A DNA stretch of 60,565 bases, taken from Elusimicrobiota bacterium. GTDB taxonomy: Bacteria > Elusimicrobiota > Elusimicrobia > UBA1565 > UBA9628. Under the pieces are notes generated by a model. The model saw only the letters and a list, made by a program, of their open reading frames with translations, did no database searches and was not told where the DNA came from. Each line of letters begins with the position of its first letter. Position 1 is the first letter of the stretch. The DNA is taken from the NCBI GenBank assembly GCA_026388095.1, contig JAPLKL010000030.1:1-60565 (forward strand), written 5' to 3'. Made by a program: the position numbers and the translations under genes. Of the stretch, positions 1 to 53,059 are shown one piece after another.

Positions 1-206
1 GTCCGGACACAGTCCTTTCGGTAGCGGGCAACAGTCCATCCCCGAACTGGCCCAGACAGGCGCAGCCTGTCTGGGCCAGTCGCGCCGAAGGCGCCATCCT
101 TCGTGCAACCTATCGGATGGGTTCTGCCGCCCCGCTTCGCGGGTCGGTTGCGCCCGGCAGACGGCCGCCGGGCGCTCGCAGAACGGACTTTATCAGCAGC
201 CTGCTA
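1..206. repeat. Structured dispersed element, copy 1 (cut by window edge)
   Basis: This stretch is nearly identical to 51771-51966 apart from one hairpin. It contains a perfect 15-bp stem (arms 47-61 and 65-79, loop GCA), a GCGCC-GAA-GGCGC hairpin, a CCCGC-TTC-GCGGG hairpin, and a 9-bp GCGCCCGGC stem inside a GTTCTGC/GCAGAAC closing stem. Its right end contains GCTAGC and supplies the stop codon of the response regulator on the minus strand. The left terminal repeat lies outside the window. No coding function is seen. Confidence 0.75.
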
Positions 207-569
207 GCGCGCCGCGCCGAGAGCGTTCTTCAGCGCGAGCCGCAGGGCCTCGGCCTCCAGCGGCTTGGCGAGCACGTCGGCGGCGCCCAGGAGCCGCGCG
301 TCCGTGGCGAACTCGCAGTCGAAGTGGCCGGTCATGAGCAGCACCGGCGCCGGGCTGCGCCGCCGCACCTCGGCCAGGGCCTGCAGGCCGGTCATGCCGG
401 TGAGCACGTTGTCCAGGAGCACGGCGTCCACGCTCTCGCGCTCCAGAAGGGCCAGGGCCTCCTCGGCGCTGGTCGCGGTCCGCACCGCGTAGCCCCAGCC
501 CGAGAGCTGGCGGCCGAGCATCTCATTGACCATGGACTCGTCTTCGACGATGAGCACGGTGGCCGGCAT
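204..569 (-). CDS. Single-domain response regulator (CheY-like receiver)
   Basis: The 121-residue protein is a lone receiver domain. It has the acidic pair D10/E11, the phospho-acceptor Asp in the LLDN motif (D53), T80 and K102 in the AKPLE motif, all in the expected order. No output domain follows, so it probably acts by protein-protein contact downstream of a histidine kinase that is not in the window. Its TAG stop lies in the terminal repeat of the structured element. A TATAAT box sits about 9 nt upstream of the ATG, so the transcript may be nearly leaderless. The partner kinase and output are unknown. Confidence 0.88.
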   Translation of the reverse strand: MPATVLIVEDESMVNEMLGRQLSGWGYAVRTATSAEEALALLERESVDAVLLDNVLTGMTGLQALAEVRRRSPAPVLLMTGHFDCEFATDARLLGAADVLAKPLEAEALRLALKNALGAAR

Positions 570-50297: not shown

Positions 50298-51743
50298 ATG
50301 GACACGTTCAAGAAGCTGTTCGGGATCGAGAAATCCCTCATCAAGCCGGACTGCATCCTCTCTCCCCTCAACGAAGTCGACCTCTTCTCCGGGTCGGGGA
50401 TGGGGGCGCGGGCCCGCGGCGACTATTTCCGGGCCGCGGACTGCCCGCAGGCCACGGTCATCGGCACGCGCTACAGCCTGCTGGCCGGCGACTGCGTCCT
50501 GCATCTCGCCGATTCCCCCTGCCGGAACATCTACCTGTTCAACTGCTGCGGGGGCCTCGGCGCCGGCATCGGCGCGGCGTATTCGGTGCGCAAGGCCTTC
50601 GACTTCGAGAGCTTCAGCGGCATGCTCGCGGGCAAGGCCGGGTCCGCCTGCTATCTTCCGGACGCGGAGCTGGCCAGGGAGTTCTCCTCTTACTCCGGCC
50701 TGCCCGAGGGCAACTGCGCCACGGTGGGCTCGTTGGCGCTCGAAGAGACGCATCTCCCCCGCTTCCGGGCCCTGGGCGTGGACTGCCTGGACATGGAATG
50801 CTCCGCGGTGTTCTCAGCGGCGAAGAAGGCCGGCAAGAGAGCGCTCGCCCTCCTCTATGTCTCGAACAGCGTCCCGGACAAGCCTTGGCACGAGCACTTG
50901 GACCGGCGCGACATCGAGAGGCTTGGCCGTTCGCGCAAGGACCTGGCCGCGTTGCTGAGGGGATTCCTTGGAAGCATCCGAAAGGAGAGAATCATGATGA
51001 TCGCTGCCTTCTTGTTCCTCATGGCTTCCTGCGGCCTCGCCGCGGAGGGGGGGAAGCCCGATTCTCATCCGGCGGCTGAATCTGCTCATGAGACCCTGTT
51101 CAGCGGCGACTTTGGGAAGGAGGTGTCTCATCTCACGCCGGCCCAACGCGATATGGCTTTGCTGATCCAGAGGAGCCACTACCAGAACCTCGTCGAGATG
51201 CTGCGCACCCTGAAGATCTCCGCCAGGGACAAGGAGCATCCCGAACAAACGGTCTCCTGCAGCCTCGCCAGCGAGGTGAAACCGCAGGATGTCCCGGTCG
51301 TCAGAGCTCAGCCAGGGGTCTGGGCTGAGAGCCAGCAGGCGATCAGCGCCGGGGTGATCAAATGCGGAGAGCATGCGTTCTTCACCCGGCAGTCCATCCG
51401 GGACGTCGAAGAGGGATTCTCAGCGCTGTTTTTTAAGAATTCCGGAACGGCCTTCTGCGTCATTGACGAGAACTGCGAGGCTTTCTGGAACCCATCCGGC
51501 TCCGAGGAGCCGACGCCCGTCGTCTCATCGGTCCTGACGGACGGGATCTTCACGACGGGAGTGCGGCGGTTCTTCCCCGGCCTGCGCGCCCAGCTCGATG
51601 GCGCCGCGTCGCAAGCGCTGAGCGCCTACGGAGAGAAGCATCCGGACTTCGGCAAGCCCTGGCCGCGCTACCCGCAGGCCCCTCCCGGGCCGGAGCCCAA
51701 AGCCGTATGCCGCCGGAACCTCTGCCGGCTAGCGGGCCGCTGA
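50298..51743 (+). CDS. Fusion: nucleoside-phosphorylase-like domain plus secreted protein domain
   Basis: The 481-residue frame has a PNP/UDP phosphorylase-like domain (residues about 1-220; NCATVGSL and CLDMECSAVFSAAKKAGKRALALLYVSN) followed without a stop by KERIMMIAAFLFLMASCGLA, a signal peptide or lipobox. An AAAGGAGA site 6 nt before the internal ATG at 50994 shows that the second half was, or still is, a separate gene. The C-terminal domain is unknown. The stop TGA lies in the terminal repeat of the structured element. The two halves may be made both as a fusion and separately. Confidence 0.65.
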   Translation: MDTFKKLFGIEKSLIKPDCILSPLNEVDLFSGSGMGARARGDYFRAADCPQATVIGTRYSLLAGDCVLHLADSPCRNIYLFNCCGGLGAGIGAAYSVRKAFDFESFSGMLAGKAGSACYLPDAELAREFSSYSGLPEGNCATVGSLALEETHLPRFRALGVDCLDMECSAVFSAAKKAGKRALALLYVSNSVPDKPWHEHLDRRDIERLGRSRKDLAALLRGFLGSIRKERIMMIAAFLFLMASCGLAAEGGKPDSHPAAESAHETLFSGDFGKEVSHLTPAQRDMALLIQRSHYQNLVEMLRTLKISARDKEHPEQTVSCSLASEVKPQDVPVVRAQPGVWAESQQAISAGVIKCGEHAFFTRQSIRDVEEGFSALFFKNSGTAFCVIDENCEAFWNPSGSEEPTPVVSSVLTDGIFTTGVRRFFPGLRAQLDGAASQALSAYGEKHPDFGKPWPRYPQAPPGPEPKAVCRRNLCRLAGR

Positions 51744-51970
51744 TAAACCCTCCAGCGGGAAGCACTGTGTCCGGACACAGTGCTTTCGGTAGCGGGCAAC
51801 AATCCGTCCCCAAACTGGCGAGCCGAAGGCTCGCCAGTCGCGCCGAAGGCGCTATCCTTCGTGCAACCTATCGGAGGGGTTCTGCCGCCCCGCTTCGCGG
51901 GTCGGTTGCGCCCGGCAGACGGCCGCCGGGCGCTCGCAGAACGGACTTTATCAGCAGCCGGCTAGCGGGC
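51724..51970. repeat. Structured dispersed element, complete copy (MITE-like)
   Basis: A 24-bp imperfect inverted repeat (21/24 match, with GCTAGC and GCTGATAAA) flanks the element of 247 bp. Inside are a 24-bp perfect palindrome (51761-51784), a CTGGCGAGCC/GGCTCGCCAG stem with a GAA loop (51815-51837), GCGCC-GAA-GGCGC (51840-51852), and a three-way unit closed by GTTCTGC (51879-51885) and GCAGAAC (51936-51942) around CCCGC-TTC-GCGGG and a 9-bp stem. The inverted repeat supplies the stop codons of both flanking genes. The first 14 bp also occur as a direct repeat at the far end. Confidence 0.82.
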
Positions 51971-53059
51971 TTTTAGGACATCCAGGATCTGGACCGCGCA
52001 AAGGATGAGGTCCGAGAGGCTGTCATCGAGGTTCGCGGTCAGGGCCACCAAGGTGTCGTCCTCCTTCTTGTAGATGAAGAAGGAATTGAAGCCTGAGATG
52101 GCTCCGGTCTTGGCCGGATAGAATTTGTCTTCGTCCTTGATCAGCTCGAGCCCGTAGCCGTAGGAGAAGCGCAGCCCCGGTCCGTCAGAGACGTAGACGC
52201 TCCCGTCCTTGAGGCGCGTCGGCGCGGTCATCTCGGCGACGGACTTGCGGCTCAGGAGCGCCTCGCCTCGGAAGACTTTGACGAGCCTGGCGAGGTCCGC
52301 CGTGGTGGAGAAGATGCCGCCGCTCGCGTAAGGCGCCGAGAAGCTCGCGACCTCGGCGTTGCGCACGGTGCCGCTGGACGCGGCATAGCCGAGGACCCGG
52401 TCCAAGACGATGCGGGAGTTGCTCCCCATGGTCGTATGCGTCATGCCCAGCGGACCGGTGATCCTTTGGGCCAGGAAATCCGCGAACGGCATGCCGGCCG
52501 CCTTCTCCACGATCAGGCCCAGGAAGATGCAGCCGGAGTTGCTGTATTGGGCTTTCGTCCCCGGCTCGAAGTCCAAAGGCTGAGGCGCCAGGAGCGCCAC
52601 GATCTCCGCGGGAGTCCAATCCTTCGCCTGGTCGCTCTTGAAGGGCTCCACCGAGGTGATGGACTTGATGCCCGAGGTGTGCTGGAGCAGGTTCTTCAGC
52701 GTGATCTCGCCGGCGCGCGGGTAGTCGGGGAAATACTTCGCGAGCTTGTCGTCGACGGAGAGCTTGCCTTCCTCCTGCAGGATCAGGACCGCTATGGCCG
52801 TGAAGGACTTGGAGAGCGAGCCGATCGCGAAGATGGAATCAGCCTTGACCGGGACCTGGCGCTCCAGGTCCGCGGACCCGTAGCTCCTGGTGGAGACCTT
52901 CCCGCCGGGCAAGGCGCTGGACAGCGACAGGCCGGGGATGCCTTTCTTCTTCAGCGCCTGCTCTATGATGGCATCCACTTTGCTCAGGGCCAGGGCTGGG
53001 GTCGCGGCGGCAAAGGACAAAAACAGGGGCGCGGCTATGAGCAGTCTTTTCACGGTCAA
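51962..53059 (-). CDS. Serine beta-lactamase-family (class C-like) hydrolase
   Basis: The 365-residue protein has a signal peptide (about residues 1-24), SxxK as SLSK at residues 81-84, YSN (in KAQYSNSG) as the YxN motif, and a C-terminal KTGAISGF in place of KTG/HxG. This suits class C-like beta-lactamases, esterases or D-alanyl-D-alanine peptidases. It is coupled by ATGA to the HD gene upstream. The stop comes from the structured element, and truncated or extended versions may exist elsewhere. Confidence 0.88.
   Translation of the reverse strand: MTVKRLLIAAPLFLSFAAATPALALSKVDAIIEQALKKKGIPGLSLSSALPGGKVSTRSYGSADLERQVPVKADSIFAIGSLSKSFTAIAVLILQEEGKLSVDDKLAKYFPDYPRAGEITLKNLLQHTSGIKSITSVEPFKSDQAKDWTPAEIVALLAPQPLDFEPGTKAQYSNSGCIFLGLIVEKAAGMPFADFLAQRITGPLGMTHTTMGSNSRIVLDRVLGYAASSGTVRNAEVASFSAPYASGGIFSTTADLARLVKVFRGEALLSRKSVAEMTAPTRLKDGSVYVSDGPGLRFSYGYGLELIKDEDKFYPAKTGAISGFNSFFIYKKEDDTLVALTANLDDSLSDLILCAVQILDVLKAR

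Follow-up and report, generated by a model that had tools for sequence, protein, structure and literature searches.

A putative IS1182-family MITE that carries two-hairpin repeats with hypervariable stems in an Elusimicrobiota genus

Two copies of the element at the locus

The window (the whole stretch of DNA analysed, 60,565 nucleotides) belongs to G000, a 4.6 Mb draft genome of an Elusimicrobiota bacterium, and contains two copies of a short hairpin-bearing element. The complete copy runs for 237 bp from CTAG to CTAG; the other is cut off by the start of the contig. Their parts are as follows.

51729..51965, plus strand: complete MITE copy, from comparison of about twenty complete copies; 93-96 per cent identical copies lie elsewhere in G000
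51729..51747, plus strand: left terminal inverted repeat, CTAGCGGGCCGCTGATAAA (family consensus CTAGCAGGCTGCTGATAAA)
51947..51965, minus strand: right terminal inverted repeat; its CTAG (51962-51965) provides the TAG stop of the gene at 51962-53059 (minus strand)
51760..51785: hairpin A, AAGCACTGTGTCCGGACACAGTGCTT; in other copies a second MITE has inserted into its core, GTCCGGAC
51815..51837: hairpin B, 10 bp around GAA; its counterpart in copy 1 is the 15-bp GCA hairpin
51840..51852: hairpin C, GCGCC(GAA)GGCGC
51877..51946, plus strand: two-hairpin DE unit, matched by the D-E model and dispersed beyond the MITE too, across the genus
51885..51905: hairpin D, CCGCCCCGC(TTC)GCGGGTCGG
51908..51933: hairpin E, GCGCCCGGC(AGACGGCC)GCCGGGCGC
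1..207, plus strand: second copy (copy 1), truncated by the contig start within hairpin A
189-207: right terminal repeat of copy 1; its CTAG (204-207) provides the TAG stop of the gene running from 569 to 204 (minus strand)
47..79: hairpin B of copy 1, 15 bp around GCA

An earlier note on this DNA had described a structured element in two copies. Both copies exist, and the complete one folds far more stably than expected (RNA z = -8.4, single-stranded DNA z = -7.5), with none of 200 shuffles as stable. The difference in hairpin B, which remains paired in both copies despite its change in sequence and length, was also confirmed. The note's further claim that the palindrome at the left co-varies cannot be seen in the window, where copy 1 begins at the contig edge in mid-palindrome, but it is borne out by other copies (AAGGACTG..CAGTCCTT versus AAGCACTG..CAGTGCTT).

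Boundaries, copy number and probable relationship to IS1182

We set the ends of the element by aligning about twenty complete copies with unrelated flanks. They stop sharply at CTAGCAGGCTGCTGATAAA...TTTATCAGCAGCCTGCTAG, giving terminal inverted repeats of 19 bp. The 24-bp imperfect repeats proposed earlier do match at 21 of 24 positions, but the outermost 5 bp at either end are unrelated flanking sequence that matches by chance. G000 holds about 40 copies (60 BLAST matches before fragments were joined), far beyond the two first noticed. A search with the terminal-repeat pattern returned 52 matches against none for a control pattern, while TTCCTTACGGGCAG with two mismatches matched at control level and is uninformative alone. 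Among GTDB genomes other than G000, the exact end pattern was found only in 'Elusimicrobia bacterium NC_groundwater_1678'. The element is thus short, non-coding, multicopy, and bounded by terminal inverted repeats, as the MITE-like description had suggested.

Searches for a known identity were negative. No Rfam family matched the element at the gathering score, and we rejected a known Rfam family as its identity; a phage, plasmid, or viral source was likewise rejected, as the element had no match of any of these kinds. One sub-threshold Rfam match, to Acido-Lenti-1 RNA (26.9 bits, cut-off 37), lies at L122:813-859 (minus strand).

The likely parent family is IS1182. In another genome of the genus (G001:C453:1460-2085), a 626-bp element has the terminal repeats of the MITE around a remnant of an IS1182 transposase (NF033551, E=2e-14); this transposase is degenerate rather than intact. 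A related end, CTAGCAGGCTGCTGAAAAA, lies about 110 bp from an IS1182 N-terminus in G004:C82. Another intact IS1182 element in G000 has CTAG at both ends and different terminal repeats. We rejected the intact IS1182 at C46:65780-67099 as the direct parent of the MITE because its ends differ (CTAGGAGCCTGTCCGAGTAAT), and found no complete autonomous copy with exactly the MITE ends in the draft G000, an assembly that breaks at repeats. Judged from these shared ends, the element is very probably a MITE of the IS1182 family.

Most complete copies have CTAG at their two ends, a 4-bp site that corresponds to the 4-bp direct repeats reported for ISPse1 (PMC3281130). IS1272, also of this family, is reported to target stem-loops and to replace them without direct repeats (PMC5678879), which ties the family to palindromic targets. 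The MITE sits at CTAG stop codons instead, and the CTAG on both sides argues against transposition of the stem-loop-replacing type. Like IS1272, ISPse1, and their MITEs, the element has terminal inverted repeats, here common to it and the transposase remnant in the genus, but it is non-coding and only 237 bp long.

Two observations on IS1182-like elements are given for completeness. Two copies of another such element (end TTCTCCGTACGCGCGCGTACGGAGAA; L042:1110-1190 and L043:800-940) each have a DE unit about 25 bp away, which recalls stem-loop targeting, and by eye a stretch that follows the intact IS1182 (L080:2980-3300) resembles the 5' part of a group II intron.

Placement at CTAG stop codons

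The stop codon of a flanking gene coincides with the end of the element in 23 of 33 copies (TAG, with a few decayed to TAA), and some copies have a convergent gene on each side that ends in the CTAG of the element. By comparison, the window has 24 other CTAG sites, of which only 6 are stop codons (Fisher p=0.0012, with genes called by a simple third-position GC caller and the 23/10 split counted by hand). CTAG is scarce in the window, with 27 occurrences observed and 76 expected.

Since CTAG sites are few and frequently serve as stop codons, insertion there would leave the gene intact. We suggest that an IS1182-type transposase acting in trans would move the element into CTAG sites, and that copies elsewhere would tend to be purged. 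By its choice of site, a mobile element would thereby find a simple safe harbour at stop codons. In G006 and G005 the dgt ortholog stops at a CTAG that lacks the element; the other flank is non-syntenic, which makes this half of an empty site. No orthologous locus with both flanks and without the element was found, and when the gene to the right of the window copy was used to look for its empty site, only weak matches came back.

A dispersed two-hairpin unit

A covariance model of hairpins B, C, D, and E found 51 matches in G000 and had others in five of the remaining six genomes of the genus. The covariance model was built from short-stem copies only, because the first alignment had placed the extra bases of the longer hairpin at its 5' end. 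A model of hairpins D and E gave 64 matches in G000, 29 in G002, 11 in G004, ten in G006, six in G001, three in G003, and none in G005, compared with zero to two matches elsewhere. The DE unit is therefore a dispersed repeat in six of the seven genomes, and many units lie outside any terminal repeat, as singles or inverted pairs. Their loops are mostly C(TNC)G or C(GNA)G. Among the 45 free-standing units for which both neighbours were placed, 21 lie between convergent genes, 21 between tandem genes, and three between divergent genes, and many have one or two stop codons no more than about 15 nt away.

These features recall the REP, BIME, and REPIN repeats, which are also small, dispersed, mainly extragenic palindromes found as singlets and inverted pairs. 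REPINs share with the DE unit the compensatory change in hairpin arms, described for the hairpins in their spacers (PMC3116915). The DE unit differs in having two hairpins with stems that are hypervariable within a single genome, and it does not carry the tag, GTAG or CGTC at the foot of the palindrome, that defines a REP (PMC3733652): GTAG/CTAC occurs in 8 of 94 unit flanks, and CGTC/GACG in 33 of 94, which by our own estimate is about chance level and is not fixed at the stem foot. Nor did we find an association with RAYT (Y1) transposases. G004 has 11 units and no Y1 gene, G005, with four Y1 genes, has no units, and none of the Y1 genes examined is flanked by a significant unit. We therefore rejected RAYT/REP mobilisation of the DE units. 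Yeast mitochondrial GC clusters, among other palindromic mobile clusters, offer a second comparison as palindromic mobile units that merge and shuffle, but their stems are conserved and their loops vary (PMC4478555), whereas in DE units it is the stems that vary. Here, moreover, the host is a GC-rich bacterium and one part of the system is carried by an IS1182-type MITE. The MITE carries a REP-like two-hairpin repeat with hypervariable stems.

How the stems change

Across 91 distinct aligned units, 95.4 per cent of cells are paired. Double-sided changes number 182, compared with 52 in shuffles, and one-sided changes only 14. This level of covariation was reached by none of 500 shuffles, and slid structures score far lower. 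Stem changes between copies are thus compensatory, and generally so, which upholds the co-variation reported from the two window copies.

The earlier note had gone on to read this as a sign of selection on structure (RNA or single-stranded DNA); selection on an RNA is not supported by the pattern. Among 110 hairpins (65 distinct stems) we counted 1215 pairs, comprising 1184 Watson-Crick, nine G-T, nine A-C, and 13 other, using a hairpin finder that favours well-paired stems. The acceptor and T stems of the 32 tRNAs of G000 contain 369 Watson-Crick pairs, 14 G-T, no A-C, and one other. With G-T equal to A-C in the units and 14 to none in the tRNAs, the units do not show the strand signature of structured RNA, strong as the covariation is. 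Within MITE copies (mis-indexed P2 helix left out) the counts are 11 G-T and 20 A-C. Stem modules also recur at different hairpin positions (13 cases versus 4.3 in shuffles, although this 7-mer control is modest, with a shuffle maximum of 14); modules such as CCCAGACA are found again in hairpins B, D, and E.

By present evidence, then, the element is not an RNA. This pattern of change, together with the recurrent stem modules and the mini-hairpins nested at hairpin tips, suggests that the stems most likely evolve by exchange or re-copying of palindromes in DNA, and not by stepwise RNA compensation. Hairpin arms would be copied from each other by template switching at quasi-palindromes, and whole hairpins would be exchanged or nested, which is most likely why the stems diversify yet stay near-perfect palindromes.

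Interpretation and alternative explanations

The explanation we find best overall, and consider probable, is an IS1182-family MITE that carries a cassette of DNA hairpins, inserts at CTAG stop codons, and has its palindromes renewed by copying and exchange. A functional structured RNA, or a bidirectional transcription-end or mRNA 3'-end element whose stems are kept by selection on transcripts from both directions, would fit the strong fold and covariation as well as the preference of free-standing units for 3' ends and their closeness to stop codons. Equal numbers of G-T and A-C pairs would also be expected if both strands must pair, as in bidirectional terminators between convergent genes. 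Such an element seems unlikely, however, given the rarity of one-sided intermediates, the lack of the G-U bias of tRNAs in the pooled units, and the Rfam results; we also looked for a U-tract terminator in the window copy and found none.

Still less likely, in our estimation, is that the hairpins act as single-stranded or cruciform DNA, with extruded GNA-loop hairpins recognised by a mobility or chromosome-maintenance protein and the structure selected at the DNA level. Watson-Crick pairing is strand-symmetric, and the loop types, the stability of the single-stranded DNA fold, the stem-loop targeting of IS1272, and the two IS1182-like copies beside DE units are all consistent with this idea. 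Against it, the HUH/RAYT link is absent, as the distribution of units and Y1 genes indicates, and no recognising protein was identified.

Returning to the MITE with its renewed palindromes, a bolder version is conceivable, though we doubt it more than we believe it: the genus would harbour self-renewing two-hairpin DNA repeats, with stems continually rewritten while DNA-level enforcement keeps them palindromic, and an IS1182-type MITE would have captured the unit and spread it into stop codons, so that structure and not sequence is inherited. As a clean natural case of strong, shuffle-proof covariation without an RNA signature, the family urges caution where non-coding RNAs are sought in repeats by covariation. 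It also supplies data with which to test how palindromes are maintained in bacteria.

Nested and neighbouring repeats

Several other repeats were seen in and around the hairpins. A second MITE, about 430 bp long and with ends CACTCCTGTCCGGGGAAA, lies in the GTCCGGAC palindrome of hairpin A at L026:1300-1700 and L030:1140-1540 and in L022, L032, L039, L040, and L041, with an apparent 8-bp duplication of GTCCGGAC. A double-hairpin mini-element of 50-60 bp, with conserved loops (AAGGAGAACGCC or TATCGGAAGTT, and TTTCCTTACGG), is nested at hairpin tips, including those of MITE hairpins C, D, and E (L033, L034; see also L271-L279). Its TTCCTTACGGCCGG form is recurrent across the genus and occurs as 57-bp tandem pairs in G001. 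Finally, L124 and L125 contain two near-identical longer repeats (>300 bp) that hold DE units together with other hairpins.
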